From assembly GCA_003165075.1 (NCBI GenBank), contig PLSM01000188.1, positions 15,028 through 79,027 on the forward strand: 64,000 nucleotides of DNA. The letters are read 5' to 3'. Shown in pieces: positions 2,251 to 18,936 of this stretch. The first letter of the stretch is position 1; every line of letters starts with the position of its first letter. Under the pieces are notes generated by a model. That model saw nothing but the letters and a program-made list of their open reading frames with translations. It searched no databases and was not told the origin of the DNA. Both the position numbers and the translations under genes were made by a program. The DNA comes from Acidobacteriaceae bacterium (GTDB lineage: Bacteria; Acidobacteriota; Terriglobia; Terriglobales; Acidobacteriaceae).

Positions 2251-3183
2251 ATGATAGATCGTCGTCAGTTTGTGAGAGCCGTTGGACTTGGCGCTTTGGC
2301 AGCCGCAGATATGGGAGTGGTTGGGAAACAAGCCGCCGCCGCAGCACGACCGGAGGTCAAGGCAGACAAGTCCAAGTTGACACGGTTATTTCCGGGATGC
2401 TGTGCCTATTCCTACGATAAGGACCTGAGGCACGGCCCGATGACGCTGGAAGAATTTATACGCAAAGCTGTAGACCTGCGGCTAGTTGGGATTGATATGA
2501 CTGTGTATTATCTCAAGTCTACAGATCCAGAGTATCTCTATAGCCTTCGCCACCTGGCATACAAGCATTCCTTGGCCTTCTCGGGTGCTGCATGCGGAGT
2601 CAGCATGGTCCAGCCCGACGCTGCAAAGCGCGCCGACAGTCTGAATCAGATCAAGGCATGGGTTGATGTCACAGACCAGCTCGGAGCTTCTCATCTCAGG
2701 ATTTTTGCCGGAACACTACCGCAAGGCTCCAGCCTGCAGGAAGCCGTAGATTGGGTGGTCGAATCCATGAAGGCCGCATGCGACTATTCCGGCAAGAAGG
2801 GCATTACGCTTGGGGTTGAAGACCACGAAGGCGTGACGCAAAGCGCGGACCTATGTGTTGAGATCATGCAACGCGTGAATTCGCCTTATGCCGGCGTCAA
2901 TCTCGACATTACAAACTTCATCCCCACGCCAACTCAAGACGCCTACGCGCAGATTGCCAAATGTATACCCTACGCCACCAATATTCACATCCGCGACCAC
3001 TTTTATGATCACACTCTTGTGGATATGGAACGCGTCTGGAAGATCTTCGCGGAAGCTGGGCATCAAGGTTTTGTATCGGCCGAATACGAGGCCAGCTACC
3101 CTGGCAGTCTACCTCCCGCTTCGGGTGTGCCCAAGTTGATTGATGAAATCCAGTCGCTCTGCAAGAAGTATTCAAGCGTTTAA
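2251..3183 (+). CDS. Tat-exported sugar phosphate isomerase/epimerase family TIM-barrel protein
   Basis: A 310-residue protein of the xylose-isomerase-like TIM-barrel superfamily (AP_endonuc_2 type). The start at 2251 is chosen because GAAAGG lies about 9 bases upstream; an ATG at 2242 is too close to it. The N-terminus (MIDRRQFVRAVGLGALAAAD) is a twin-arginine signal, so the enzyme acts outside the cytoplasm, unusual for a phosphosugar enzyme. Barrel features include GVEDHEGV with a metal-ligand-like Glu, GVNLDITNF, NIHIRDHF and the closing GFVSAEYEAS strand, in the order expected for divalent-metal sites. It is divergent from the six-hairpin protein. Exported members of this family in sugar loci are often ketose epimerases or isomerases; the actual substrate is unknown. 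Confidence 0.82.
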   Translation: MIDRRQFVRAVGLGALAAADMGVVGKQAAAAARPEVKADKSKLTRLFPGCCAYSYDKDLRHGPMTLEEFIRKAVDLRLVGIDMTVYYLKSTDPEYLYSLRHLAYKHSLAFSGAACGVSMVQPDAAKRADSLNQIKAWVDVTDQLGASHLRIFAGTLPQGSSLQEAVDWVVESMKAACDYSGKKGITLGVEDHEGVTQSADLCVEIMQRVNSPYAGVNLDITNFIPTPTQDAYAQIAKCIPYATNIHIRDHFYDHTLVDMERVWKIFAEAGHQGFVSAEYEASYPGSLPPASGVPKLIDEIQSLCKKYSSV

Positions 3184-3272
3184 TTGATTCATCGCGATCG
3201 TCTGTTTGACTCAACAACAGATCGTAATTTTAGCGAGGCGCAGCACAGACCGTCGACAGTGACTCAAGAGTT

Positions 3273-3869
3273 TCAGTCGCAGCAGTTCTCTTGCAGTGGA
3301 CTCGCAAGGGAACTGCTCTTGACGGATGTCTTGATATGACTCACCAGCGTCAGCGAGAGAAGAAATGCCGCCGTGAAGCACACGTCGCTGACAAGTGAGT
3401 TACGAAAGAACAACCAAGTTGGCGGATAGGCTGGCAGGCCAATGGTGAGAGCTTGGCCCCAGCCCGCAAGAGTTTTGGCATACGCAGGGCTGGTCAACCA
3501 TGAAGCCGTATTGGTAATGAGATAGAAAGCCGAGGACCCGGCCACGCTCGCAAATAGAAACGCTCCCGCTCTGCGGCTCTTTCTGAGCCGCAGTCCGAGC
3601 ATGGCGATCAATCCAAGCGCCGCGTAACGCGGCAGCATTTCGCCGGGAACGAACACTGCACCAAAATGAACATTTAGCACGACGTCCGAAATCATTAAGA
3701 TCGACAGCGGTAACAGAAAAGCCACTCTACGTGGGAAAATCGCGGGGCCGCACAATGCGAGAGCGGCCAACGGCGAAAAATCCAAGAGCCACAAATGTTG
3801 TGCGCCAAAGTCAGCGGCAATGATGCGATAAAGAACAACAGCAACAAACAAAGGGCATGCGAATTTCAT
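3273..3869 (-). CDS. DUF6580 family integral membrane protein
   Basis: A 198-residue polytopic membrane protein. ATG 3869 is chosen because a strong GAGGTGG sits about 6 bases upstream; the frame extends to 4001 but that extension is hydrophilic and overlaps the preceding stop. Features typical of the DUF6580 family, distantly like ECF-transporter substrate-binding components, are LPLSILMISDVVLN, EMLPRYAALG, FYLITNTASWLTSPAYAKT, GLPAYPPTWLFFRNSLVSD and several hydrophobic helices. It is the last gene of the minus-strand run mtaC-mtaB-URO-D-DUF6580, about 130 bp after the methyltransferase. A role in uptake of a cofactor or substrate for the methyltransferase system is possible but only inferred from position. 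Confidence 0.75.
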   Translation of the reverse strand: MKFACPLFVAVVLYRIIAADFGAQHLWLLDFSPLAALALCGPAIFPRRVAFLLPLSILMISDVVLNVHFGAVFVPGEMLPRYAALGLIAMLGLRLRKSRRAGAFLFASVAGSSAFYLITNTASWLTSPAYAKTLAGWGQALTIGLPAYPPTWLFFRNSLVSDVCFTAAFLLSLTLVSHIKTSVKSSSLASPLQENCCD

Positions 3870-3997
3870 GATTTCCACCTCTATCGGGAATCGTTGCGCC
3901 TTCAAAGCGCGTTCTTCGTCGGAGAGTAGCGGCAGACAGCCTGCACGAGTTGAAGCGAGCAGTGGTTTTGGTTTCTGAACTGTTGCCTTGCCGAACG

Positions 3998-5083
3998 TCA
4001 CTGGAGAGGTTCGCGCTGAACGGTCTCGATCATGGCAAGGATGTTCTCCAGCGGGGTACCAGCCTGGACGTTATGACATGAGCAACAGATGAAGCCCTGC
4101 CGGTCATCGCCCAAAGTGTCGAGGCAATACCGGGTTTCGCGGCAAACGTCCTCGGGTGTGCCGCGAGGCAGCGCGAACTGATTGTCCACACCGCCGTGAA
4201 ATATGACGCGATCACCAAACTCATGTTTGAGTTCTTTCAAATCCATTCCCGGACAGGCGTGTTGAATCGGGTTGAGTACGTCCACGCCACTGTCGAGAAT
4301 GGCTCCCAGCAGAGGGCGTGCAGCGCCATCCGTGTGGTAAAACGCTCGCAAGCCATGGGAATGTATCAGTTCGCACCAGCGCTTCAGGCGCGGCTGCAAG
4401 TACCGTTTCCATTGAGCGGGCGCCATCAGGAGCGAAGTCTGGCCGGCAATGTCGTCGCTGATAAAGACCAGGTCGAGCGACTTGCCGGCACGCGCGAAGA
4501 AGCGGCGCATCATTTCAGTTTGAATGAACTCCACACGATCGAGAATCGCGTCCACCAGTTCCGGGGCTTCAATCAGGTCCATCATCGATTGTTCCATCCC
4601 GCGCAACTGGCAGTAAATCTCAAAGAACGAAACCCACGGCCCTATAACCGCAAAATCCTTCGCCGCCTCGCGTACGTTTGCTACCGCACTGTCATAATCG
4701 AAGCCTTCTACACTGGGCCACCAGGGGTAATCGTTCAGCGATTCCGGGGTCTCGTAATCTGCCAGCGGCGCGGATCCGAACTCCGAGTAATGGGCGGCGC
4801 CGGCTTGAACGTCCTTGAGTGGCACGCCCCACATGGTACGGCTGCCGCCTTCGGCGCCGGCGCCAGACTGGCCTCCCGCGCGTTCCCCAGCATCGGTCCG
4901 GTAGTCCATGAACGCCCAGACAATCTTGTCCAAACCGAGAGCGCGATACATCGCAAGGTCGTCCGCCACGCCGCAATACTGCCGCAGAAGCTCGCCGATC
5001 TCCGGTGTGTGCCAGAGATCTACCGGCAGTCGGTCCACCGGTTCACGGTTCAAGATAGCCAGGATGCGCTCACGGGGAGTCAT
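3998..5083 (-). CDS. Uroporphyrinogen decarboxylase family methyltransferase (MtaA/CmuA-like)
   Basis: A 361-residue protein of the URO-D fold, placed 5 bp after mtaB and so almost certainly co-translated with it. In methanol methyltransferase systems this family moves the methyl group from the corrinoid protein to a thiol or folate acceptor. Visible features are the N-terminal PRERILAILNREPVDRLPVD, FISDDIAGQ, the HTDG motif (His250, Asp252), FHGGVDNQ and a Cys-rich segment FICCSCHNVQAGTP (Cys333, 334, 336). Canonical MtaA uses His-x-Cys plus a distal Cys for zinc; here the middle ligand position reads Asp, so acceptor or metal chemistry may differ. True haem-pathway HemE is unlikely because of the operon context and these motifs. 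Confidence 0.85.
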   Translation of the reverse strand: MTPRERILAILNREPVDRLPVDLWHTPEIGELLRQYCGVADDLAMYRALGLDKIVWAFMDYRTDAGERAGGQSGAGAEGGSRTMWGVPLKDVQAGAAHYSEFGSAPLADYETPESLNDYPWWPSVEGFDYDSAVANVREAAKDFAVIGPWVSFFEIYCQLRGMEQSMMDLIEAPELVDAILDRVEFIQTEMMRRFFARAGKSLDLVFISDDIAGQTSLLMAPAQWKRYLQPRLKRWCELIHSHGLRAFYHTDGAARPLLGAILDSGVDVLNPIQHACPGMDLKELKHEFGDRVIFHGGVDNQFALPRGTPEDVCRETRYCLDTLGDDRQGFICCSCHNVQAGTPLENILAMIETVQREPLQ

Positions 5084-5087
5084 GATA

Positions 5088-6470
5088 TCAGCCTTTCAAC
5101 TCGTATTCTTGGGGCAGGAATCGCGAGCGATCGGCGAGGGCTAGTTGCCGACCGATGAATTCGGATTCACTTTCGGGCAGTTCATCCAGGTCGTCCTGCA
5201 TCGTATCGAACCAAGCCACTTCTTTGGGCTCGATGTGCAGTTTCCCCTGGCCATATGCTTCACGCAGCAACTCGACCGCCTTGCGCGCCACGGCCACGCC
5301 GGCGTGATAATACGAGTCGCTGTTCACGATAACCCGCGCCAGAGCCACAGAAGATTCAGGCGAGAGGATGAATGCCTGCGGGTCGAGCGCCGCATCGGAC
5401 TCCACGAACCAGCGCTGGAGCTGCCGTGCAGATTCTTTTCCGTGACCGCGGGCGGTGTTCATCAAGCGGCAATCGTAGATCAGCTGTTCCATGTAGCAAG
5501 TCGGCGCCATGCCGCCAAGGAGCTTGATATTCTGCACCGATTCGTTGGACCAGGTATCGCAGCACGCTGCGGCAAGATTGCCCATGGGGCTCAGGTGCGC
5601 ACAGGCCGAGGTCTTGCCTTCCATCGCCATCGGATAGCCGGTAATGGCCTTGAGTATTGGATTCTCATAGCCGCAGTCCTTGCCCGGCCCCACCGCGCCG
5701 CATTCGTAGGCCACCAGCGACCGCACTGCCGTAATCGCCCGCACCACGGCCGCGAACACGCGCGGAATCATCTTCTGCTCGGCCAGTACCATGGCGGTGT
5801 TTCCGAAGCCGCACGCGGTATCGCCGGCGCACTTCACACCATGCTTATCGGCGATCGTCTGCAGATTGGTCCACAAAAAGCGCATGTCGCGCTCGCCCAG
5901 AATGCAAAGAGAAAATAGGCTGCCTGCCAGGTCACCGTTGACCAGCGCCTCATCGTGCAGTTCTTTACCGCCCACCGATTCGATGCTGAGCAACTCAGCT
6001 CCCGCCGCAGCCGAGCCTTCAAACAATTCCAGCATTGCGTCCCAGTACCGTCCCCGGCGCATCAGCGGAGGCCGCTCGAACTCGCGGTTGTCGTTGGGTG
6101 TCATGCGCAGCACACTCTTCAAGCCGCTGCGGCATGCTTCCTGCTGCATGCCTTCGAGCAGAATCTTGGCAATCTCCAATCCCCAGGCCGGATGTTCGGT
6201 CATCGGCGGCAGCGTTTCAAATTCAATCACCACGCCGGGAGCATCCAGTTCCGCCGCGCGCCCCAACGCACCCGCAATGATCTGCTCGTAATTGTGGCGC
6301 ACCTCCGGCATGGTGCCGGCGTCAATCTTCATCGGAGGCAGCGTGAAATTCAGTTCCGGATAGACCGTGCCGCCGCCAATGACCATCCCGCTGCGCGTGA
6401 GGACAGGCTTCGGCGAGATGCCAAAAATAAGCTCAGAAGGATCTTCAATTGCCAAAGACTTATAGTGCAT
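5088..6470 (-). CDS. mtaB: Methanol:corrinoid methyltransferase, MtaB family
   Basis: A 460-residue protein of the MtaB family, which binds methanol at a zinc site and methylates Co(I) of the partner corrinoid protein. The zinc ligands known from Methanosarcina MtaB (Glu164, Cys220, Cys269) are present at nearly identical positions: Glu164 in LSIESVGGKE, Cys220 in CAGDTACGFGNT and Cys266 in GAVGPGKDCGYENP. Length matches the family. It is the second gene of the mtaC-mtaB-URO-D operon, 24 bp downstream of mtaC. This is not a generic URO-D or radical enzyme. The only doubt is substrate: methanol is expected from the family, but another small methoxy compound cannot be excluded in a polysaccharide locus. 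Confidence 0.92.
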   Translation of the reverse strand: MHYKSLAIEDPSELIFGISPKPVLTRSGMVIGGGTVYPELNFTLPPMKIDAGTMPEVRHNYEQIIAGALGRAAELDAPGVVIEFETLPPMTEHPAWGLEIAKILLEGMQQEACRSGLKSVLRMTPNDNREFERPPLMRRGRYWDAMLELFEGSAAAGAELLSIESVGGKELHDEALVNGDLAGSLFSLCILGERDMRFLWTNLQTIADKHGVKCAGDTACGFGNTAMVLAEQKMIPRVFAAVVRAITAVRSLVAYECGAVGPGKDCGYENPILKAITGYPMAMEGKTSACAHLSPMGNLAAACCDTWSNESVQNIKLLGGMAPTCYMEQLIYDCRLMNTARGHGKESARQLQRWFVESDAALDPQAFILSPESSVALARVIVNSDSYYHAGVAVARKAVELLREAYGQGKLHIEPKEVAWFDTMQDDLDELPESESEFIGRQLALADRSRFLPQEYELKG

Positions 6471-6494
6471 GGATATTTTCTTTCTTGAATCGGC

Positions 6495-7130
6495 TCAGGC
6501 AGTGGCCCGCAGCAGCTCGATCGCCGTATCCACTGCAGAGCCGGCATCCGGCGAGTAACCGTCGGCTCCAATCTCGCGCGCAAACTCGCGCGTAATCGGC
6601 GCTCCGCCGATCACAATCTTGACGGCCAGGCCCTCGTCGCGAATTGCCTTCACTGTGTCGCGCATGGCCGGCATGGTCGTTGTGAGCAGCGCCGACAAAC
6701 CCACAAGCTGCGGCTTGTGCTGCTTGACCGACTCGACGAATTTGGCCGCGGGCACATTTACACCCAGGTCGATCACCTCGATGTTCGCGCCCTTCCACAT
6801 CATCGCCACCAGATTCTTGCCGATGTCGTGCAGATCTCCTTCCACAGTGCCGATCACGGCGGTGTGTTCCGGCTTGACACCGGCCACCAGAAGCAAAGGC
6901 TCAAGCACCTTGAGTGCTTCCTTCATGGCTCGCGCGGCGATCAACATCTCCGGCACAAAAATTTCGTTTTGTTTGAAGCGCTCTCCGACAATCATCATGC
7001 CGGGAACCAGGCGGTTCTCAAGAATCGAACCCGCACTTTCCCCGGCTTCAAGACACTGCGTTACGAGCGCGCCGACTTCTTTGCGCCGCCCATCAACCAC
7101 GGCCTGCGTAAGCGGATGTTGTTCATTCAT
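6495..7130 (-). CDS. mtaC: Methanol methyltransferase corrinoid protein, MtaC family
   Basis: A 211-residue cobalamin-binding protein: an N-terminal four-helix cap domain (residues 1-85, with NRLVPGMMIVGERFKQNEIF) and a C-terminal Rossmann-like B12 domain. The base-off/His-on signature DxHxxG is present as GDLHDIGKNLV, with His101 the expected lower cobalt ligand. Further B12-domain features are GLSALLTTTMPAM and IGGAPIT near the C-terminus. It is the first gene of the methyltransferase operon, directly before mtaB. It would carry the methyl group between MtaB and the URO-D family enzyme. No reductive activator (RamA/RACo-like) gene was seen in the window, so reactivation of oxidised cobalt must be done by a protein encoded elsewhere. 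Confidence 0.92.
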   Translation of the reverse strand: MNEQHPLTQAVVDGRRKEVGALVTQCLEAGESAGSILENRLVPGMMIVGERFKQNEIFVPEMLIAARAMKEALKVLEPLLLVAGVKPEHTAVIGTVEGDLHDIGKNLVAMMWKGANIEVIDLGVNVPAAKFVESVKQHKPQLVGLSALLTTTMPAMRDTVKAIRDEGLAVKIVIGGAPITREFAREIGADGYSPDAGSAVDTAIELLRATA

Positions 7131-7497
7131 CTCTGCTCCATCCTAGAAAAAATCCTTCCTGTAGTTCTGTGTTGCAAGACACATTATCTTCACTATTCGC
7201 CTCACGACTGATGCCGTGGAGGGTCATACCAGCACAGCGTCTGCCTGGATGGGTTACGACGCGATTTTCTCTATGGCAAATGCATTGCCGTCATCACGCT
7301 GTGGCCCGAAGCCGAAAATCAAAGTCTCCAACCTGGTGTCGCCCATTAATCGACGTTTTCCGTTGTTCGCTCCTGATTCCTTGAGCCCGAACAAGCCAGT
7401 GCCCGCCGCTGTTGTCCCTTGGAGGGAACAGGCCCCGGCACTAAGGAGCCTGTTCGGGTTGATTGTGGGTTGGAGAGACATTTGACTCTTTCTGTGC
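7131..7497. other. Intergenic region between GH106-type gene and mtaC
   Basis: This 367-bp gap lies downstream of the GH106-type gene and upstream of mtaC, both on the minus strand. It should contain the mtaC operon promoter. I see no convincing coding frame and no recognisable cobalamin-riboswitch B12 box. Its main feature is the nested hairpin at 7386-7458. Confidence 0.45.
7386..7458. terminator. Long nested hairpin, likely terminator or structured leader
   Basis: Three nested complementary stems are visible. The outer stem pairs CCCGAACA (7386-7393) with TGTTCGGG (7451-7458), 8 bp. The middle stem pairs AGTGCC (7398-7403) with GGCACT (7437-7442), 6 bp. The inner stem pairs TGTT and CCC around 7410-7418 with GGG and AACA around 7424-7430. 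It lies 40-110 bp after the stop of the minus-strand GH106-type gene and about 260 bp before mtaC. No clear T-tract follows, so a factor-independent terminator is uncertain; a structured RNA or mobile-element relic is also possible. Confidence 0.5.
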
Positions 7498-10400
7498 TCA
7501 CTTCTTCTGTGCCTCTTGTCCTTTGCTATCGTCCTGGGTCACATGCAGTGTCAATACGCGATCGACAAATGGAATCACTTGTACTGGGCCTTCCATTCCG
7601 CAGATGTCGATCGCCGCCAATATGTGATGCGACGTCCCCACCGCGCGTTGATTTGCCTCAGTGTTTGTAACTAGGACCTTAATCTCGTTCTCGCCAGGCT
7701 TGATCAGCTTCGAGATATCAAGCTGATAAGGCCTCCACACCAGCGTGCCCGCATGCTGGCCATTTACAAACACATCCGCCACGGAACTTACGCGTCCGAG
7801 GTCGATCATGACTCGCTTGTCGCGGAAGTTGTCAGGAAGAACGAATGTCTTGGTATAGACAGCAGTTCCAGAAAAATTGGCAAGACCGGTTTGCGTCCAC
7901 GATTTGAGCAAGAAAGGCGTCTCACCGGTCACAAACTGAACTGGAGCGACCAGCGAATCGTCCTTGCGGGCGATGATGACGAGGGTGTTCTTTTCGCCTT
8001 GGGGACTACCATGTATATCGACGGGCGCGTTGCCTTTTGGACTCAACTCCTTGCCGTTGATCAACATTCGATAAGGACCGTGAAAGACAGGCGGCACAAC
8101 AGCCACACAGCCGGGCGGTACCTGTATACGGTACCAGCGCATATCGGCGTCTGTCGTGCCAGAACCATGCAATTCTTCGGGAGAAGTACTGGCCGCCACA
8201 TCAGAAAGAGTGACGCCATTATCATCTGCGACACGGAATGAGAACCCATAGAAGCCGCTGGCTGCACCTCTGCCCTTTCCTACTTTCACCAAGACTTCGT
8301 TCCAGCCTTTGTGAAGGTCCACCGGAACACGATCAGCCCAGTTGTCGTTGATCTCGTACCAGAATGGAGTTCGTAGTTGTGCAAATACCTGCTTGTGGTT
8401 CAGCCAGATACCAGTCCAGTTATCGGCAGCCACGATGAACTGTGCATGTTGATCGCTGGGAGAATATAGATAGGTGTGTCCATAACTCACAACCCAACTC
8501 TTCCCTTCTGTCGACAACTCTGAGCTGAAGTTCACGATATATCCAGAGTCCGATGAACTGCCTCCCTCGGTTTTCATCCAGATGTCCCAGCCACCAAGTG
8601 CCAAGCGAGGTTCGTTGCCGTTGTAATCTTCCCAGCCCACTTGCCCGTCGAGACCATCGTATTTTTTGCGGAGATCGAATTCCTGCTCCGGTGGATAGAT
8701 CTTGGCAAAGCCATCGTTGTCCGTATTTGGAAAGGGTCCGATCAATTGCCAGTGGCGAACCGTATTCTGCTCTTCGTTCAACCACATTTCAGGCCAGTCT
8801 GTATCGTCGAAGTCAGATGCTGCCCAGCCACGCTTGCCGCCTGTCACCTCAGGCGCATCACTTACCCTGGCGTAGGGAACGGACACGCGATCCGGCTGTG
8901 GTCGAAACTGCCACTTGCCACCTAATGTGAGAGGCTGTGCGCCGCCGTTCGATGCCGAGCCCTTGTAGATTTCTGCGCCGTTACGCAGTTCGACAAATGT
9001 GTCAGAAGTACTCACCGGTCCTAACACATGCACGTTCACTGTCTTACCTTGGCGAGTTACGCTATCCAGACTCTCTGCATTGGTCGCTTCAAGAACCGCA
9101 TCCTGCAAGGATCCTGTAAGAGGATGGAAAACCACGTAGAAAGCGTCCCACGGATCCAGATTGAGACGTACATCCGTTCCCGTAGGGCCATTCACATAGA
9201 AGAGCGGTTCCTTCGCCCCAGTTAGGGCATTCCATTTCTCCGGGATTCCCTTTGCAGCAAAGTGGACCTCGTTCACGCGTTTCCGATCGGTGTCGTTAAC
9301 GACCCAATAATAGTCTTCCTGCAACTTGCGGCGATGCTCGACAAAGAGGTGCTGCGCGGGGCCGGACGTGAGTTGGATGTCCTTGGGTACATGTGCGTCA
9401 AGAGTGGCGATCAAGGCGTCGACAGAGTCGTCTATATAAAAGGAGCCCCCAGTGTTCGCGCCACTGTTCTCGCCGCCCGAAGCCTGCGCGCCTGCGACGC
9501 CGGAGCCAAAGATCGACGCGATTCCCGCCTTGATCACTGCGTCGTTATCACCCGTTTCCGGCGAAGCTGTGGGAAGGAGGCGTATGCCGAGAATGATTCC
9601 GCCGGCCTGGTGAAACTCCTGTAGCTTCTTCAGTGTGGTTCGACTGAGCGTTGTTATGGGAGGAAGAATGATTGCGCGGAATCTCTGCGGCCCTATGACT
9701 AACTCATTGCCTTCGACGCGCGCATTTTCAATATACTGGTCGTCCGCAATATTGTAGTCCCAATGATGGTTGGTTAACTCAAGGATGATTCGCGTGTAGT
9801 AATCATTGACCAGAACTGTCTGATTCTTCCAGGCTGCGGGCTGACCAATCTGCTGATAGTCGGTCTCTCCTGAGAACAAGGGACGGGTTTCGGCCCACAT
9901 CGTGGTGATGGGATAGTAAAGCAGCACATTCGTTGCATGTTGGCTGTCCGCGTTCATATAGCTTATGCGTCGCGTATAGTCCGCATAGGTGTGGAAATAG
10001 GACCAGTAGGGTTGGTGCATCCAGTCGGGCGGATAATTGGCGCGGCCCCGATCATAGTTGAAGGCATGCGGAATGAATAGGTTCACACCTGAGACGCCAA
10101 TGCCATTGGTGCCCTTGCGAATCCCTTCAAGATCGAGATAAGAGTCTGTCCCTTGTACCCCTTGGTTTTCGCAGGCAAAGCGGCGGCCTTCAAAGTCCGC
10201 CACCGATTGTGCCACCTTGAAGTTCAACGGCTGACGACCAAAGTCCACGAGCGAATCTACGCCTACAGGATTGAGCCCCCGCTCCACCGTGAAGAGACTT
10301 CCTTCAAGCGCGGCGGCCCACTGCAGGCTCTCTTCCCACGCGTGACCGGTGCGATGGATACCGAACCCTTCGGCAGATTTGGTGATTCCCTTCCAGAACG

Positions 10401-11376
10401 AATTCCCATACAACTCTGTCACGGTTGAGAGATAGTCGGCTCGAACCTTCGTGGTCTGATCGCCACCGCTATAGATGAGCAGCGGCAGGACCTTGTGCAG
10501 ATCGTATCCTGTCCGCTCCTTGAATGCGGTGAACAGTTGCGGCGTCCAGGCGATGCGATAGCCGTAATCTCCTTCATGATCGGCGAAGGAATAGTGGATG
10601 GTGCTTCCGAAATAGGAAGCAAATCGACGATGGTACTCTCCATACACGAGATCGAAGAATAGGTTGGTGGTGTCGGGATTCATGAGGTCAACGAAGCCGC
10701 CGTCGAAGCCCATCGCGGGCTTCAGGCTAAACTGCACCATGACCCATTGACCCGCAGGTGCGGTCCACTGGATATGTCCGTCCTTTCCATCTGAGTCGAG
10801 CAGAGCAAGGCTCGCAGCGTCGATCTGGTTTTTTCCCAGCCAGCGCGCGACGACGACCGCTTGCAAATCCGGACTTGCGGGCAGATCGACCGCCTGCGGC
10901 CCATCGATGACCTTCGCTTCATAGGCCAATGTCTTCATGCGAAGGTCGGGACGCTTCGCCAATACCTCGCTTTGATGATTGCCGGCCATCCATACGTTTC
11001 GCACTTCGCCGCTGGGCCAGTCGTATTCATCTACAAAATTGAATTCGAAACCCGATTTCCGGGACTGTTCGAGGCCGGCGCCTATTGCCTTGAACCATTC
11101 TTCTGATAAATACGGCGTTTGAAGACCGTCGCGCCCATGAAGAAAAGCTCCATAGACATGCTGGTCTACCATGGCTCGGATCTGCTGCTGGATGATCGGG
11201 CCTTCCATCTTTCCGTTCCAGAACCAGAACGGCATGGGAGAAAAGTCATGAGGAGGATCGAGGAAGCTGCGATAAAGTGAATCGGCGTCGGCACCGATGC
11301 TCTGCGAAGAGCACTTGACGCTGGATACAAAAAGTATGGCAATCAGTGAAAACAAAAACACACACCGCTTCATCAT
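7498..11376 (-). CDS. Exported GH106-type (alpha-L-rhamnosidase-like) glycoside hydrolase
   Basis: A 1292-residue secreted enzyme with a Sec signal peptide (MMKRCVFLFSLIAILFVSS, probable cleavage near residue 25). The N-terminal catalytic-barrel region carries PMPFWFWNGKMEGP (48-61), GAFLHGRDGLQTPYLSEEWF (76-95) and DEYDWPSG (116-123). This pattern is typical of the large GH106 alpha-L-rhamnosidase-like group. The middle contains a beta-galactosidase-like trimer segment (ILPPITTLS..., LLYYPITTMWAE). The C-terminus has a beta-sandwich sugar-binding-type domain (RVMIDLGRVSSVADVFVNGQ). Rhamnose release fits the rhamnonate-dehydratase-like gene 5 kb away. It lies downstream of the TonB receptor on the same strand with a hairpin between them. 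Substrate is inferred; other uncharacterised GH families share the N-terminal motif. Confidence 0.8.
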   Translation of the reverse strand: MMKRCVFLFSLIAILFVSSVKCSSQSIGADADSLYRSFLDPPHDFSPMPFWFWNGKMEGPIIQQQIRAMVDQHVYGAFLHGRDGLQTPYLSEEWFKAIGAGLEQSRKSGFEFNFVDEYDWPSGEVRNVWMAGNHQSEVLAKRPDLRMKTLAYEAKVIDGPQAVDLPASPDLQAVVVARWLGKNQIDAASLALLDSDGKDGHIQWTAPAGQWVMVQFSLKPAMGFDGGFVDLMNPDTTNLFFDLVYGEYHRRFASYFGSTIHYSFADHEGDYGYRIAWTPQLFTAFKERTGYDLHKVLPLLIYSGGDQTTKVRADYLSTVTELYGNSFWKGITKSAEGFGIHRTGHAWEESLQWAAALEGSLFTVERGLNPVGVDSLVDFGRQPLNFKVAQSVADFEGRRFACENQGVQGTDSYLDLEGIRKGTNGIGVSGVNLFIPHAFNYDRGRANYPPDWMHQPYWSYFHTYADYTRRISYMNADSQHATNVLLYYPITTMWAETRPLFSGETDYQQIGQPAAWKNQTVLVNDYYTRIILELTNHHWDYNIADDQYIENARVEGNELVIGPQRFRAIILPPITTLSRTTLKKLQEFHQAGGIILGIRLLPTASPETGDNDAVIKAGIASIFGSGVAGAQASGGENSGANTGGSFYIDDSVDALIATLDAHVPKDIQLTSGPAQHLFVEHRRKLQEDYYWVVNDTDRKRVNEVHFAAKGIPEKWNALTGAKEPLFYVNGPTGTDVRLNLDPWDAFYVVFHPLTGSLQDAVLEATNAESLDSVTRQGKTVNVHVLGPVSTSDTFVELRNGAEIYKGSASNGGAQPLTLGGKWQFRPQPDRVSVPYARVSDAPEVTGGKRGWAASDFDDTDWPEMWLNEEQNTVRHWQLIGPFPNTDNDGFAKIYPPEQEFDLRKKYDGLDGQVGWEDYNGNEPRLALGGWDIWMKTEGGSSSDSGYIVNFSSELSTEGKSWVVSYGHTYLYSPSDQHAQFIVAADNWTGIWLNHKQVFAQLRTPFWYEINDNWADRVPVDLHKGWNEVLVKVGKGRGAASGFYGFSFRVADDNGVTLSDVAASTSPEELHGSGTTDADMRWYRIQVPPGCVAVVPPVFHGPYRMLINGKELSPKGNAPVDIHGSPQGEKNTLVIIARKDDSLVAPVQFVTGETPFLLKSWTQTGLANFSGTAVYTKTFVLPDNFRDKRVMIDLGRVSSVADVFVNGQHAGTLVWRPYQLDISKLIKPGENEIKVLVTNTEANQRAVGTSHHILAAIDICGMEGPVQVIPFVDRVLTLHVTQDDSKGQEAQKK

Positions 11377-11628: not shown

Positions 11629-14600
11629 TTAGAAGAACATCTTCATCGCAAATTCCATAATCCTGGGATCGCCGGAATTGGTGATTTGACCAAAATTCCC
11701 GCTGCCTAGCCCAGTACTAACGCTATTGAAGTTCGGATGGTTCAGCACGTTGAACGCCTCAACCCGGAGCTGCAGATTGAGACGGTCGTAAAGCGGAAAA
11801 GACTTATAAAGAGATACATTCGCAGACGTATAACCTGGTCCGCGAATCGTTCCATTCCTCGCATTTCCATAGAAGCCGTAACCGGGAGCCGCGAAGGCAG
11901 CAGTGTCGAACCACTCTTTTATGGTACCCACTTTACTGACTTTTGCCACCTGATTTGGGCGACTAGTCAAGCCATTGGCGTTAGTCGACATGCCCGGACT
12001 TAAGGCAAACCCGCTCTGGTGCAGGACCAGCCCTTGGAAACTCCAGTGTCCCAAGGCGGACTCTAGAGCCTTGTCACTGTGGCTGAAAAACGGAATAGCA
12101 TACACCCACGTTCCACTGATGTCATTCTTGAAGTCATAGGAAGGCGGACCGTACTCCGCCGCCCAATCGCGCGGATTCTGTGGCCCCGAACCTTGAGAAG
12201 TGTTAGCACCTGAACCGTGTCCGGCCACAGTAGCCAAAGCCTTTCCAAATGTGTAAGCTACGCTGAATTGCGATGGGCCGACGTTATACCGACCCGAAGT
12301 CTCGAACGCATTGTAGTTGCCGGTACCCTCGTCGTACTCGTAGTCGATTCCGGCGTATCCCTGGTAGGGACGCGTGTACTGGGATGAGGCAGCTCCGGTA
12401 CTGATGCAGGGATCATAGTCATAGGCAGCTGATGGCGACTGAGTAGCCGCTAGGCAGGTCGTGCCCCCGACGCTTGGAGCAGTTACGGCCGTGGGCCAAT
12501 TGATATCGTTGCCACCGCCCACTCCGCTGACCATGTGACGCGTTTGGCTTCCAACGTAAGCCGCGTTTGCAACCAAATTGCTCTTGAATTGATGCTCCAA
12601 TGTCAAGCTGTAGGACTGGACCTGAGCCGCCTTGAAGCTCGTCGGGTTGTCATCTAGTCCCTGGGGACTGGGCGCTACGGCCGACCCTCCCGCGGTTCCA
12701 TTGTCGAGCAGACTGTTGGTGATATTTGCCGATGCGTTATACGGTGGGTTGGCTCCAAAGGCATAGTAGATTTGCGCAACCGGAATTCTCGAGTAGCCTA
12801 TCCCGTATCCACCGCGTACAGAGGTCGTCCCATGTCCGCTCAGATCGTAGGCAAAGCCGACGCGGGGACCGAAGTTTGTTTTAACTGGGATAAAGAACCC
12901 GGAAGGAACGCCATTTTGCCCCGCGAAAACGAGTCCGTTGAGCAGATTTGCAACAGTTCCGCCGGTTGTCAAGGGTTGATTCGAGGCATTGACTGTAAAT
13001 TGTCCGGCTATATTCACAGCGGGAGCCTGCGATGCATCGTAACTTGCTGGATTGAAGTTGCTGACCTGATCTCCACTTGCAGAGTCGCTGGAGAAATATA
13101 CGTAGCGCAAACCAAGGTTAAGGGTCAAACGAGGATTTAACTTCCAGTCATCCTGGAAATAGGCTTCGCCTTGCCGATAGTGGAAGGCCCCTTCTCTTTC
13201 CGTGGCGTCTTGCTGGTAGCTGGAATCCAGTCCCAGCATTAAATCCGCAGCCGTATCTCCGGTGTGCGTACCGTTGAACCCAAAGGTGCCTTGCGGGGAT
13301 GTGAAAACCGTCTGCCGCTTGATCCCAAACATATACAGCGCGCCGGCTTGCAGAACATGTCTGCCTTTTACCCAGCTCAGGTCGTCCATGATCGAGCCTT
13401 CGCCATCCGAAGCTGAAATAGGTTGAGAACTGACGCCCAGGCCAGAATACCCTTGGGCCATGTTGATGTTCGGAATCCGGTTTTCGATCGGCGCATTGGG
13501 GAATGCCTCAACGATCGACAGTCCGGTTGGCATCGTGCCATTATGCGTCGTAAGAAGGATATGCGGCCGGTCATCCGCTTCCGCCACGCCCGCAATATTC
13601 AGCAGGTTGGGCGTAATCTGCGACTGAACACGGAGGACGCCGTTGAAGCCTGTTGTATAGAAGGCATCCCTGATCGTGCTGTAGGGCGTACCGGTCCACG
13701 AGTTATTGGGAAAATCGTTAAGTGTCGGTTCATACATGACCCGCCCGGACAATTGGTTGTTCTGATTGATCTGCTGATCCACGCGGAACTGATAATCAAG
13801 TTGAGTTGTTTTCCCCGGAGTCTGGTTAATGTAATTGTTGAAGCCATTCGCAGTGTTATTCGGCAGAGGAACATAGGCATTCAGCAACGCCACCGTAATC
13901 GGATCCAGACATGCTGGATTGATGGTCGTGGAGTTCGTAAGGCAGTCGGTCCTTCCTTCTGAAGCCAGGAGTGCCTGGCTGTGTGCATCTATCGCCAGGG
14001 AGTTGGGTTGCCCGTTGACGGGGTTTACTGCCGGCAGCGTCGGACTGGCGCTGAAATCACCATTGCGCTGCGCTTGCGTAAGTACCGCGCCGTTGATCAC
14101 GGACGAAGAAATGATGTCTTGCCATTGGTTGGATGCGAAAAAGAACGTCTTTTTGTCGCGATTCGTGTTGTAGAGTTTGGGAATGATGACCGGGCCACCC
14201 AGGGTGTATCCATAGATGTTTTGATGGAGCCCAGGGGCGCTGGTCGAGAAGTAGTTGTAGGCGTCGAAGTCGTTGTTGCGCAGGTATTCCCACGCGCTTC
14301 CATGGAACGTCTCCCCGCCACTCTTGGTCGAGACGGTGATCTGGGCGGAACCGGCAAATCCGAACTTCGCGTTGTAGCTGTCTTTCTCCACCGAGAATTC
14401 GGAAATCCCATCGGGAATCGGCGTAATGTCGATGCCAGCCATGTTGCCGGAGTTCATGTTGTAGACACCATCAATAGTGTAGGTGCTGTATTCGACAGAG
14501 TTACCATTGACGATCAGAGAGGTACCACCCTCAAGGCCGCCGCCGCCCAGGCTATCAGCGCCGTGTACATCGGACACTCCAGGAATCGAGAGCGCCAGTG

Positions 14601-15078
14601 TTTCAAAATTTCGCCCGTTCAACATCAGGTTCTCGATTTGCGAACTGGAGACGGTGCCCGCGCTTTCCGAGCTTTCCGTGTTGACTTCCAGCGCATTCGC
14701 TTCGACCGTTACCTGGGCAGTCGCGCTGCCAACTGCGAGCACGACGTTACTTGCGCGCCGCTGTCCAGGATCGAGTTGTATCCCGCTCGTGACACTTTCC
14801 TGGAAGCCGGATTTTGCAACGTCGACTGTATACAGCCCATTGGTGAGCCCCTCGACCGAATAAAAGCCGCTGCTATCAGTCGTCTTCTCATAAGGGACCG
14901 CAGTGCTCTGGTTGGTAATGGTCACCTTGGCGCCCACTATGGCAGCGCCGGTTGAGTCGGTAACAGTGCCCGAGATGGCACCGGCGTTCGCCTGCCCGTG
15001 TAGAAATGGACCTGCGATAGTCAACAAGCAGAGGAAAGCTGCAACCTGCAGCATGGTGTTGCGTAGGAGATATTTCAC
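11629..15078 (-). CDS. Oar-like TonB-dependent outer-membrane receptor with carboxypeptidase-regulatory-like domain
   Basis: A protein of about 1149 residues in the Oar-like TonB receptor family that is expanded in Acidobacteriota. GTG 15078 is preferred because GGAGG lies 8 bases upstream and it begins the signal peptide (VKYLLRNTMLQVAAFLCLL); a TTG at 15093 is the alternative. After the signal comes a beta-sandwich domain (GAISGTVTDSTGAAIVGAKV, YSVEGLTNGLYTVDV), then a plug (LMLNGRNFETLALSIPGVSD, YTIDGVYNMNSG) and a large barrel ending in a terminal Phe pair (EFAMKMFF), as outer-membrane insertion requires. It probably imports oligosaccharides produced by the neighbouring exported enzymes. 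It shares an upstream region with the divergently transcribed sugar-sensing regulator. Substrate is not readable from sequence. Confidence 0.93.
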   Translation of the reverse strand: MKYLLRNTMLQVAAFLCLLTIAGPFLHGQANAGAISGTVTDSTGAAIVGAKVTITNQSTAVPYEKTTDSSGFYSVEGLTNGLYTVDVAKSGFQESVTSGIQLDPGQRRASNVVLAVGSATAQVTVEANALEVNTESSESAGTVSSSQIENLMLNGRNFETLALSIPGVSDVHGADSLGGGGLEGGTSLIVNGNSVEYSTYTIDGVYNMNSGNMAGIDITPIPDGISEFSVEKDSYNAKFGFAGSAQITVSTKSGGETFHGSAWEYLRNNDFDAYNYFSTSAPGLHQNIYGYTLGGPVIIPKLYNTNRDKKTFFFASNQWQDIISSSVINGAVLTQAQRNGDFSASPTLPAVNPVNGQPNSLAIDAHSQALLASEGRTDCLTNSTTINPACLDPITVALLNAYVPLPNNTANGFNNYINQTPGKTTQLDYQFRVDQQINQNNQLSGRVMYEPTLNDFPNNSWTGTPYSTIRDAFYTTGFNGVLRVQSQITPNLLNIAGVAEADDRPHILLTTHNGTMPTGLSIVEAFPNAPIENRIPNINMAQGYSGLGVSSQPISASDGEGSIMDDLSWVKGRHVLQAGALYMFGIKRQTVFTSPQGTFGFNGTHTGDTAADLMLGLDSSYQQDATEREGAFHYRQGEAYFQDDWKLNPRLTLNLGLRYVYFSSDSASGDQVSNFNPASYDASQAPAVNIAGQFTVNASNQPLTTGGTVANLLNGLVFAGQNGVPSGFFIPVKTNFGPRVGFAYDLSGHGTTSVRGGYGIGYSRIPVAQIYYAFGANPPYNASANITNSLLDNGTAGGSAVAPSPQGLDDNPTSFKAAQVQSYSLTLEHQFKSNLVANAAYVGSQTRHMVSGVGGGNDINWPTAVTAPSVGGTTCLAATQSPSAAYDYDPCISTGAASSQYTRPYQGYAGIDYEYDEGTGNYNAFETSGRYNVGPSQFSVAYTFGKALATVAGHGSGANTSQGSGPQNPRDWAAEYGPPSYDFKNDISGTWVYAIPFFSHSDKALESALGHWSFQGLVLHQSGFALSPGMSTNANGLTSRPNQVAKVSKVGTIKEWFDTAAFAAPGYGFYGNARNGTIRGPGYTSANVSLYKSFPLYDRLNLQLRVEAFNVLNHPNFNSVSTGLGSGNFGQITNSGDPRIMEFAMKMFF

Positions 15079-15193
15079 CGGCCTTGCCTCCAAGTTGAAA
15101 TCACCCAGGCAGATTTCGTTCTGCCATTATTTCCACGCTATGAGTAATGTCGTAACGTTGAGCTGGCAATAATGAAAATGCACCGTATCAAAA

Positions 15194-15222: not shown

Positions 15223-15283
15223 CCGAATTGCGAAAAACACGGCCTTCGTTGCCGACGCTGTGCTTCTGCTATTTGGGTGTGAA

Positions 15284-16447
15284 ATGCCCGCTTCCACTCA
15301 CGACAACTCGCGATACAAATTGGAGACCGTAGCGCGGGCCTGCACGATCCTGCGTCACTTCGCTGATGTTCAGCACTCGTTGAGCCTTAGCGAAGTTGTG
15401 GAACGAACTGGATTGGAGCGCACAATAGTGTTTCGAATCCTGAAGACCTTGGAACAGGAAGGCCTGCTTCGTCGTCCTGAAGGACGAAGGTATTTGTCAA
15501 ACGTCAATTTGCTTACACAAAAGCGATTCCGCATCGGCTACGCATCGGAGACCACGGATTCATTTTCGGAGGCGGTGACACAAGGAATTCGCTGGGCGGC
15601 CGGCCGTCATCAGATCGATCTAATTGAAGTAGAGAACTTGTACAGCCCGAAGGTAGCATTGCGCAATGCGCAAAGACTCGTACAGCAAAAAGTGGACCTT
15701 GCGATCGAGTTCCAGGTCTACGAACGCATGGGTTCACAACTGGCGGCCTTATATGAGCAGGCTGCTATACCCGTAATTGCCATCGAGATCCCCCAGCCCG
15801 GTGCCATCTTTTTTGGGATAGACAACTATCGTGTCGGCCAATTGGCCGGCAAGGCGCTGGTAAAGGCGGCACAGCAATATTGGCACGGGGAAATCGATGA
15901 GTTGTTATTGCTCAATCTTGAAGTCGCCGGCTCTCTTCCGCATCTTCGTATTTCGGGCGCAGAATCCGCCGTTCGCAGTTCATTGCCCGGAAGCTATCAG
16001 ATTCTCCATCTGGATTCTCGTGGCGAGATGGAGCGTTCTTTTGAATTGGTGCGGCGCCACGTGCAGTTCAGCCCGAAACGCAAGACGCTTATTTGCGGAG
16101 TCAACGATCTGGCGGTACTGGGCGCTCTGCGTGCCTTCTCTGAAGTTGGCCGAAGCAATCTCTGCCTTGCTTTAGGAGTGGGCGCGTTCCCGGAGGCTCG
16201 CCGCGAATTGCGATCTCCGCAAACACGGATGATTGGCTCTATTGCCACGTTTCCTGAACGCTACGGAGACAATGTCATCCAGATCGCGCTTGATGTGCTC
16301 CAAAAGAAGCAGGTCCCGCCCGCGGTCTATGCGCCCATTCAACTTATCACCCCACAGAACATAGACCAGTTCTACCCCAGCACTTTATTTGCCGACGCCG
16401 ATAAGGAATCGTCTCCGAGAAAGCTACCTGCCACACGTCTCGGTTAG
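15284..16447 (+). CDS. Sugar-sensing transcriptional regulator: IclR-type HTH fused to periplasmic-binding-protein-like domain
   Basis: A 387-residue regulator. Residues 10-75 form an IclR-type winged helix (LETVARACTILRHFADVQHS, LSEVVERTGLERTIVFRILK, TLEQEGLLRR). The rest is a LacI/ribose-binding-like sugar-sensing fold (DLIEVENLYSPKVALRNAQR, VDLAIEFQV, FFGIDNYRVGQLAGKAL, LICGVNDLAVLGALRA). This joins an IclR DNA-binding head to a LacI-style effector domain, so it belongs to neither classical family. ATG 15284 is preferred; an in-frame ATG at 15260 would add 8 residues and neither has a strong ribosome site. It lies between the receptor and the catabolic operon, with inverted-repeat operators on both sides, so it probably senses a sugar from this pathway. 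Confidence 0.85.
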   Translation: MPASTHDNSRYKLETVARACTILRHFADVQHSLSLSEVVERTGLERTIVFRILKTLEQEGLLRRPEGRRYLSNVNLLTQKRFRIGYASETTDSFSEAVTQGIRWAAGRHQIDLIEVENLYSPKVALRNAQRLVQQKVDLAIEFQVYERMGSQLAALYEQAAIPVIAIEIPQPGAIFFGIDNYRVGQLAGKALVKAAQQYWHGEIDELLLLNLEVAGSLPHLRISGAESAVRSSLPGSYQILHLDSRGEMERSFELVRRHVQFSPKRKTLICGVNDLAVLGALRAFSEVGRSNLCLALGVGAFPEARRELRSPQTRMIGSIATFPERYGDNVIQIALDVLQKKQVPPAVYAPIQLITPQNIDQFYPSTLFADADKESSPRKLPATRLG

Positions 16448-17865: not shown

Positions 17866-18936
17866 GTGCACGACAAGATCAAATGCGGAGTTATCGGCGC
17901 CGGTTGGTGGGCGACGTTCGCACACATTCCAGCATTGCTAGAACATCCAAACGCGGAATTGGTGGCAATTCAAAACGACAACCAGCAGGAGGTGCAGAAG
18001 ATCGCTCGGGATTTTCGCATTCCCGTTGCCTGTACTACCGCCAGTGAACTGCTTGCTATCGAAGGTATTTCGGCGGTCGTAGTCAGCAGCAGCCCTCATC
18101 TGCATTACGAAGATGCTCTTGCGGCCCTTGAGCTGGGCAAGCATGTGCTGATCGAGAAGCCGATGACGCTAACTGTCACCGAAGCCATGGAACTGGTGAA
18201 GACAGCGGATGAGCACAACGTCCAGTTTCTCATCAGCTGCCCCTGGCATCACACCGCTCATGGCACCGAAGCGCAGCGCCTGATACGCGATGGGGCTCTT
18301 GGCCAAGTACGCATGATCAGCGTCTTGATGACCAATCCAATCGGCGACCTTCTCCGCGGCGCCGATACCCGGCCCACGCATGGGACACCGTATATGCTTC
18401 CGCGCGCGGGAACCTACAGCGACCCAAGGGTGGCTGGGGGTGGGCAAATCTATGCCCAGGTTTCTCACGCAGCGGCTTATCTGACCTTTCTGACAGGTGC
18501 GTATCCCAGTGAGGTTTTTGCGCGATTCCATAACGATGGCGCGGCGCTCGACATCTACGATGCCCTCGATCTGCGCATGGACGACAGCTCGATTGTCACG
18601 ATTGCCAGCACGGGTGCGACGAGCCGTGGGCGCAGGGACTTCGAGGTGCGGGTATTCGGCACCAACGGGATGTTATTCCTTGATCTCTGGCGTGGAAGAC
18701 TGGAATTTGTGCCACTTGTTGGAGGGCCACGTACTTATCCCGATCTTGACGAGGATGCAATCTATCCCCATAAGGCTCCGGCACAGAATTTGATCGATTC
18801 CATCCAGGATCCACGCCGTAATCAGTCGCCTGCAACATTTGGATTGGCGGCAATGGAAGTGATTGAGGGGGCAACCCTCTCCGCAAAGACAGGCAACAAC
18901 CTTCTTGTCTCCTCTCTCGCGGAGCAGCCCGCATGA
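17866..18936 (+). CDS. Gfo/Idh/MocA family oxidoreductase
   Basis: A 356-residue NAD(P)-dependent sugar dehydrogenase-type protein. The GTG start at 17866 has GAGGAG about 8 bases upstream and lies 11 bp after the dehydratase stop. The N-terminal Rossmann fold shows CGVIGAGWWATFAHIPALL (dinucleotide loop) and the family signature HVLIEKPMTL with the Lys of the EKP motif. The C-terminal half has the family's open beta-sheet (GGGQIYAQVSHAAAYLTFL with the catalytic-type His; DFEVRVFGTNGMLFLD). Members oxidise or epimerise sugars and sugar acids, so it is expected to act on an intermediate in the same pathway as its neighbours. Its last four bases overlap the start of the next gene (ATGA). Confidence 0.88.
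   Translation: MHDKIKCGVIGAGWWATFAHIPALLEHPNAELVAIQNDNQQEVQKIARDFRIPVACTTASELLAIEGISAVVVSSSPHLHYEDALAALELGKHVLIEKPMTLTVTEAMELVKTADEHNVQFLISCPWHHTAHGTEAQRLIRDGALGQVRMISVLMTNPIGDLLRGADTRPTHGTPYMLPRAGTYSDPRVAGGGQIYAQVSHAAAYLTFLTGAYPSEVFARFHNDGAALDIYDALDLRMDDSSIVTIASTGATSRGRRDFEVRVFGTNGMLFLDLWRGRLEFVPLVGGPRTYPDLDEDAIYPHKAPAQNLIDSIQDPRRNQSPATFGLAAMEVIEGATLSAKTGNNLLVSSLAEQPA

Follow-up and report, generated by a model that had tools for sequence, protein, structure and literature searches.

How did a set of methanol-type corrinoid methyltransferase genes come to stand between plant-sugar genes in an acidobacterium, and what could it do there? The genes in question (mtaC, mtaB, a gene for a UroD-fold protein and a gene for a DUF6580 membrane protein) lie within 64,000 nucleotides of contig PLSM01000188.1 (positions 15,028 to 79,027) from the draft genome of an Acidobacteriaceae bacterium (GCA_003165075.1), and this whole stretch is referred to as the window. 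Corrinoid-dependent methanol use is commonly presented as a trait of methanogens and acetogens. Based on sequence comparisons, the window carries a real and probably working methanol-type corrinoid methyltransferase operon, and we are fairly confident that the MtaB/MtaC module, together with the UroD-fold helper and DUF6580, entered its acidobacterial host from a Limisphaerales-like verrucomicrobium.

Identity and Organization of the Operon

The mtaC gene (6495..7130, minus strand; 211 aa, Pfam B12-binding and B12-binding_2) is followed after 24 bp by mtaB (5088..6470, minus strand; 460 aa, methanol:corrinoid methyltransferase family, Pfam PF12176), after a further 4 bp by the gene of the UroD-fold protein (3998..5083, minus strand; 361 aa, Pfam URO-D 95.5 bits) and after another 128 bp by the gene of a DUF6580 integral membrane protein (3273..3869, minus strand; 198 aa, PF20221 106 bits), whose reading frame is open from 3273 to 4001 and whose start was set by homology at 3869. 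The original prediction, made from the letters alone, had described the first three genes as a tight operon, which agrees with the open reading frame coordinates, the strands and the 24- and 4-bp gaps; the DUF6580 gene is an additional co-directional member that it had not listed. The four co-directional minus-strand genes may form a single transcript, and the 367 bp between the stop of the neighboring GH106 gene and the start of mtaC (7131..7497, minus strand) are the presumed promoter region. A consensus scan found no promoter-like sites in 7131..7497, and over 3100-7700 it returned three promoter-like sites (shuffle mean 1.8) and four terminator-like sites (shuffle mean 4.8). Riboswitch control of the operon was rejected because no Rfam match was found in the window or in three related loci (L017, L020, and L100).

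MtaB matches PF12176 with 547.7 bits (cut-off 25) over residues 2-457 of 460 and matches the MtaB of Methanosarcina barkeri (2i2x_A) with 312 bits. Residues E164, C220, and C266 align with E164, C220, and C269 of the M. barkeri protein, which we take to be its zinc ligands, and the E, C, and C at these places are identical in all 65 aligned rows, including M. barkeri and an archaeal bin. In MtaC, His101 lies within the sequence DLHDIG, and 39 out of the 40 MtaC cluster members carry the DxHxxG motif (the exception is a gene cut by a contig end); its best solved relative is 1y80 (174 bits), presumably a Moorella corrinoid protein. The domains and the residue alignments bear out the claim of a methanol-type methyltransferase pair with intact catalytic residues. 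The operon genes may be expressed, and the substrate of MtaB would be methanol. A second, weak MtaB match in the same genome (contig C52, 25.9 bits, profile positions 391-453 of 460) comes from a 91-aa frame close to the end of the contig, where a short segment (L087, ∼869-1048) resembles the C-terminus of MtaB.

Origin of the Operon

Among the 51 named loci with an MtaB relative, the closest belong to Verrucomicrobia subdivision 3/Limisphaerales bins, and the best identities to loci of this type are 88% for MtaB (L016, L017, and L018), 82% for MtaC, 86% for UroD (L017, where the gene stands beside mtaB) and 67% for DUF6580 (L022). Within the class of the host, a PF12176 match was identified in 16 out of 399 sampled genomes: the 13 other near-complete MtaB proteins are 45-54% identical to the window MtaB over at least 427 residues, one fragment (L101) is 43% identical over 104 residues, and a divergent MtaB-like gene of genome G169 (L102) clusters with MtaB, has no match from the window MtaB and was left out of the phylogenetic analysis. 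Within the family of the host, MtaB is present in 11 out of 398 genomes and, apart from that of the window, none exceeds 53% identity. In the MtaB tree of 65 rows (a quick search with SH-aLRT support only and some long branches), the window MtaB falls into a set of 10 with a support of 99 that consists of eight Verrucomicrobiota, the window and an unclassified bin (L061), and the 13 class rows stand away from this set. The GC content at third codon positions (GC3) is 0.72 for mtaB, 0.71 for mtaC, and 0.68 for uroD, compared with a mean of 0.62 (sd 0.03) for the 31 other window genes longer than 200 aa, two of which reach 0.70-0.71. Acquisition from Verrucomicrobiota is the simplest and most likely reading of these comparisons. 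Carriage on a plasmid was rejected, MtaB having no match in the plasmid collection. The search with the UroD-fold protein also lists a Terracidiphilus sp. protein at 83%, which means that this type of UroD may also be present in other acidobacteria.

Partner Genes and a Possible Route for the Methyl Group

The original prediction had tied its reading to a corrinoid activator and to C1-folate enzymes elsewhere in the genome, and members of both groups are present. A single RACo_C_ter copy above cut-off was identified on contig C93 (193.8 bits, cut-off 27; 506 aa), with AcsV and RamA as its nearest NCBIfam models, both below cut-off. Its neighbors there encode DUF1638, a UroD (428-aa frame), a corrinoid protein and a GH59 protein. 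An MtaA-type UroD (L084:13377-14393), located 2.4 kb upstream, has a zinc site, HIC...GC, that conforms to HxC...C and reaches 130.3 of the 235.4 bits asked by the MtaA/CmuA model TIGR01463. Among the loci compared, these C93 proteins have their nearest relatives in mtaCB loci native to acidobacteria (57-66% for RACo, 65-70% for the corrinoid protein, and 63% for the MtaA-type UroD, in L165). A genome-wide MtaB search matches only contig C159 and, weakly, C52, so the C93 corrinoid cluster (L084:13377-19998, L085:1-3517) appears to be native and to lack mtaB. Across the class, RACo_C_ter was found in 16 out of 16 MtaB-positive genomes compared with 84 out of 399 overall (hypergeometric 4e-12, a value inflated by kinship) and in 14 out of 14 (1e-10) once the weak MtaB matches of G169 and G308 are set aside. 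The genome further encodes an HMT-MTHFR fusion (717 bits, cut-off 453) and PurU (contig C66, 376 bits, cut-off 286), so that the MTHFR and the PurU of a cmu-like folate oxidation route are both present. In the aerobic cmu pathway of chloromethane use, growth depends on metF and purU (PMC3621897).

The sequence itself establishes the genes and their residues, the presence of the activator, of MTHFR and of PurU, and the affinity of the operon to foreign loci, and a possible working can be built on these. The RACo-type activator of C93 would keep the MtaC corrinoid as Co(I), and MtaB, with zinc on E164, C220, and C266, would activate methanol and methylate that corrinoid. The methyl group would next pass to a thiol or a folate through an enzyme of the UroD fold (most likely the MtaA-type protein of C93, the operon UroD, or both), and the HMT-MTHFR fusion and PurU would then direct it either into methionine or, by way of methylene- and formyl-folate, into formate. 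The putative elements of this route are the methyl acceptor and the direction of folate flow.

Several observations weigh against a transferred operon that works in this manner. MtaB reaches 419.9 bits with the NCBIfam equivalog model NF040651 (cut-off 720), and equivalog cut-offs are likewise not reached by MtaC or for MtaA; the claim is therefore one of family membership, not of orthology with the methanogen genes behind the models. RACo lies on another contig, so its location does not support joint regulation with the operon. No FTHFS was found in the draft genome (95% complete), and no dihydropteroate synthase (DHPS)-type second methyltransferase (MTII) was found, as the only two PF00809 matches in the genome are FolP (dihydropteroate synthase by TIGR01496) and MetH (by domains). 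The exact order mtaC-mtaB-UroD-DUF6580 was not found in the related loci read: L017 is arranged mtaC-mtaB-UroD without DUF6580, and L020, L021, L022, and L025 are arranged mtaC-mtaB-DUF6580 with UroD elsewhere, absent or of another type (L020 has an 80% UroD elsewhere in the locus). The GC3 of the DUF6580 gene is host-like (0.59), and this gene may therefore have a separate history. Finally, mtaC was called in only 38 of the 63 related loci with a called mtaB (the window aside, and many contigs are short), which indicates that mtaB is not always accompanied by mtaC; the codon-score gene caller used for these loci missed the DUF6580 gene of the window and mtaB in L024, L059, and L101, which makes all cluster counts lower bounds.

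The UroD-Fold Protein and the Fate of the Methyl Group

The third gene of the operon had been called a URO-D family methyltransferase. The UroD fold holds (the AlphaFold2 model displays alternating strands and helices with a mean pLDDT of 89.9), the protein is not of the MtaA type, and its methyltransferase activity is presumed. With TIGR01463 it scores 74 bits, below the cut-off of 235.4, and its site H250-T-D252...H337 does not match HxC...C, the motif read off the 4ay7 alignment that we take to be the MtaA zinc site. Residues H250, D252, C333, C336, and H337 are conserved at ≥98% in 121 aligned rows. Three main UroD types occur in the mtaB loci, namely HxC...C (most of cluster c8), HxC...EC (c9), and HxC or HxD...H (most of c5, which includes the window protein), with exceptions in c5 and c8. 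Among solved structures, the closest relative is MtaA (4ay7), with 45.9 bits in a profile search. First methyltransferases (MTI) of the UroD superfamily, with methoxy compounds and chloromethane as substrates, include MtvB, OdmB, VdmB, MtoB, and CdmB (PMC13222342). With MTIs in the superfamily and an acceptor enzyme as the best solved relative, the operon UroD may be either an acceptor enzyme or a second O-demethylase. Altogether 11 places in the genome match PF01208, one of which is probably HemE by score (401.6 bits), and the other 10 suggest an expansion of a family of mostly unknown function.

The methyl group might be assimilated, passing from methanol to homocysteine and into methionine and S-adenosylmethionine, rather than be oxidized to formate for energy. 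MtaA-type zinc sites suit thiol acceptors, the genome has its HMT-MTHFR fusion, and a homocysteine S-methyltransferase family gene (cluster c6) occurs in 12 mtaB loci (Pfam-confirmed in four: L016, L017, L088, and L089). On the other hand, PurU adjoins mtaC in L016 and L017, which points to dissimilation, and a cobalamin-dependent MetH is also present, so the supply of methionine does not need a methanol route; we regard assimilatory use as a possibility, on balance somewhat unlikely. A homocysteine S-methyltransferase domain fused to DUF1638 was observed directly after mtaB in one locus (L088:8318-9961).

A second alternative concerns the operon UroD, which could be not an acceptor enzyme but a second MTI, for instance an O-demethylase acting on an O-methyl sugar, with MtaC serving both it and MtaB. 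This would fit the existence of the UroD-superfamily MTIs named above, the conserved H-x-D...H in place of HxC...C and the occurrence of more than one UroD type in several related mtaCB loci. However, no characterized MTI is found among the close relatives, where MtaA is the best solved structure and CmuC is 28% identical over 45%, and we therefore consider a second MTI unlikely, if conceivable.

Neighborhoods of Related mtaB Loci

The commonest genes around mtaB in 66 loci encode MtaC, RACo, DUF1638, AraC regulators, UroDs, homocysteine S-methyltransferase, and DUF6580. DUF6580 is a recurrent partner of mtaCB: it follows mtaB in L020, L021, L022, L025, and others, and it precedes mtaC in the native acidobacterial loci L097, L162, L163, and L168 (Pfam-confirmed in all four). 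The native acidobacterial order is DUF6580-mtaC-UroD-mtaB-DUF1638-RACo (L097 and L168), and L162 has the same order without the inner UroD. The AlphaFold2 model of DUF6580 is helical (mean pLDDT 81.9), and a profile search of solved structures returned nothing up to E = 10; that the protein could be part of an energy-coupling factor-type transporter is our assumption.

The gene content near mtaB was compared with that further away, based on 176 near (<3 kb) and 149 far (≥6 kb) genes outside clusters 0-9, from which 115 near and 130 far genes were drawn and 109 of the 130 far genes analyzed; the 25 commonest families were listed, so that an unlisted family may have up to two members. CobW-type GTPases account for 6 out of 115 near genes and do not appear in the 25-family list of the 109 far genes. 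In archaea, CobW-type GTPases cluster with mtaA, mtaB, and mtaC (PMC2770081).

Eight of 74 loci contain, within ∼10 kb of mtaB, a gene for a MocDEF-like fusion, in a single protein, of a desaturase-type (MocD-like di-iron) oxygenase, a MocE-like Rieske and a reductase part (L020, L026, L028, L032, L034, L046, L100, and L162, from Verrucomicrobiota and the family of the host; in L032 the gene runs off the edge of the locus, and in L028 it is split over two frames). Coordinates are L020:2994-5252, L100:12270-14531, and L162:724-3006. The reductase part of the L020 copy scores above the NqrF cut-off, and MocE is the nearest model for its Rieske part (117.7 of 136.15 bits). Separate genes for a desaturase, a MocE-family ferredoxin and an FAD oxidoreductase lie together on Rhizobium and Acidiphilium plasmids. 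The mocDEF genes remove the O-methyl group of rhizopine. They serve the catabolism of the rhizopine 3-O-methyl-scyllo-inosamine (PMC10107442, PMC3538637). Four of the eight fusion loci also encode a sugar transporter (L034, L046, L100, and L162), four an unassigned protein that is isomerase-like by eye (L020, L026, L100, and L162) and three a mutarotase (L028, L100, and L162). The protein encoded after the fusion (L100:14544-15485, L020:5255-6151) has no NCBIfam match, and its L020 copy has no Pfam match; a 37-38% relative lies directly upstream of GH106 in two loci without mtaB (L144:7485-8303, L145:12069-12923).

These neighborhoods suggest O-methyl sugars or cyclitols as the C1 source in the fusion-bearing relatives. 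The fusion could release the O-methyl group within the cell, as methanol if the ring carbon is attacked, MtaB could capture it, and the UroD-fold protein could act as a second demethylase or as an acceptor enzyme. In the parts of the window's own genome that were read (the window, C93:1-40000, C159:1-15100, and C52:1-12000) no such fusion was found. The broader idea that MtaCB modules of Acidobacteriota and Verrucomicrobiota serve O-methyl-sugar or O-methyl-cyclitol catabolism and not pectin methylotrophy, the window operon being the transferable half, seems doubtful to us.

Sugar Genes on Either Side of the Operon

Upstream of mtaC lie genes for a GH106-type α-L-rhamnosidase-like protein (7498..11376, minus strand), a native neighbor outside the methyltransferase unit, and for a carboxypeptidase-regulatory/TonB-receptor type outer-membrane protein (11629..15093, minus strand), also native. 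On the other side lie genes for a xylose-isomerase-like TIM-barrel protein (2251..3183, plus strand; Pfam AP_endonuc_2) and an MGH1-like hydrolase (3-1820), both classed by Pfam and both of the twin-arginine (Tat) type by a DRRxF motif seen in the sequence rather than by predictor output. The predicted position between sugar-type genes is thus confirmed, and GH130 and enolase-superfamily genes are found in the window as well. The receptor-type protein (11629-15093) is 32.6% identical over 100% of its length to a Granulicella tundricola plasmid protein and 26.9% over 98% to an Acidisarcina protein, in keeping with an acidobacterial host. Two further genes of the window were observed: a regulator with a seemingly unusual pairing of an IclR-type helix-turn-helix and a periplasmic-binding-protein domain (15260-16447, plus strand), and a solute-binding-protein family member without an evident signal peptide by eye (18933-20096, plus strand), located between an oxidoreductase and an isomerase-like gene.

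It had been proposed that the locus couples the breakdown of rhamnogalacturonan or pectin with capture of the methanol released. The GH106 and other sugar enzymes around the operon speak for such a coupling, as do GH78 in the mtaB locus L100, GH59 both beside the mtaC operon of L168 (DUF6580-mtaC-mtaB) and on contig C93 of the window's own genome, GH2 in L165 and an MGH1-like gene in L162. Against it, a search of the draft genome for PF01095, one family of the pectin methylesterases that the original prediction had named as a check, gave 0 matches, and the operon is foreign to its flanks. GH106 above E = 1e-100 occurs in 4 out of 200 family genomes, including the window's own; the GH106 protein has 69% relatives in two genomes of the family, and the receptor has a 63% relative. 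No mtaB was found in the GH106 loci L143-L145, and the two relatives readable on both sides, G420 (69%) and G215 (35%), have none near GH106. L143 (G364) is a native rhamnoside locus with the order 63% receptor, GH78, GH106, and 69% GH106, and its contig ends within 0.7 kb past GH106. Rhamnosidases make up 3 out of 115 near genes and at most 2 out of 109 far genes, a weak enrichment at most. The place of the operon beside plant-sugar genes looks coincidental, and the coupling with pectin, which neither the pectinesterase search nor the GH106 locus comparison nor the near/far comparison backs, was set aside as very unlikely. Least credible of all is that the operon is a verrucomicrobial piece binned or assembled by error into an acidobacterial metagenome-assembled genome (MAG): the draft is in 194 contigs with a contamination estimate of 3.74% and the nearest named loci are from Verrucomicrobiota, but the operon lies inside a contig of 223 kb with native genes on its GH106 side (GH106 69% and receptor 63% to family members), and the MtaB cluster comprises 22 members, from 39 contigs.

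Comparison with Known Systems and Implications

The window proteins resemble MtaCB of M. barkeri (2i2x) in a near-full-length MtaB family match, in the equivalents of E164, C220, and C269 and in a separate DxHxxG corrinoid protein, and they differ in a score (312 bits; well under the methanogen equivalog cut-offs), in the bacterial host and in an operon without a CoM-type MtaA. The acetogen MtaA is of the DHPS type. The MtaABC system of Moorella, Acetobacterium, and Eubacterium also has MtaB and MtaC in one operon and needs a corrinoid activator, but its MtaA is a 29.7-kDa protein delivering to tetrahydrofolate (PMC13391211), of which no counterpart was found here, nor was FTHFS; acetogen MtaA is listed with CdmA homologues, hence as DHPS type, in PMC13222342. 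Like the cmu system of Methylobacterium extorquens CM4 (PMC3621897), the window genome combines a corrinoid methyltransferase in an aerobe with UroD-fold proteins and a MetF and PurU route. In the cmu system, however, the methyltransferase and the corrinoid protein are the two domains of CmuA, and folate receives the methyl group from CmuB; the window genome has MtaB and MtaC, and a DHPS-type acceptor was not found. The view of the original prediction that such systems belong mainly to methanogens and acetogens is out of date: Acidobacteriota express mtaB along with genes for methoxy compounds in bog and fen (PMC10805028), and mtaB is found in 1.6% of floodplain MAGs (PMC11264602). Expression of mtaB in Acidobacteriota is thus already published. 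These peat and sediment genes share with the window an mtaB in Acidobacteriota (PMC10805028, PMC11264602); the other MtaB proteins of the class of the host are 45-54% identical to that of the window. Papers on methanogen mtaBCA (PMC12203004) and on mttB in one acidobacterial bin (PMC9455692) gave nothing decisive here.

In the open-licence literature, which leaves most subscription journals outside and makes the result a weak one, no paper was found on an acidobacterial methanol corrinoid methyltransferase under that wording, on a link between corrinoid O-demethylation and a methylated sugar, on a Limisphaerales corrinoid methyltransferase, or on UroD with a corrinoid protein and a glycoside hydrolase in verrucomicrobia. 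The features that remain interesting are the operon without a canonical second methyltransferase found, the H-x-D...H UroD, the recurrent DUF6580, and the MocDEF-like fusion near mtaB. If the proposed reading is true, corrinoid methanol use would spread between soil-bacterial phyla by gene transfer, with an acceptor step for which no match was found among described bacterial systems. There would then be a testable job for DUF6580 and for UroD proteins of the H-x-D...H family, and the MocDEF-like linkage in some relatives would be a lead on the demethylation of methylated plant or microbial sugars in soil.

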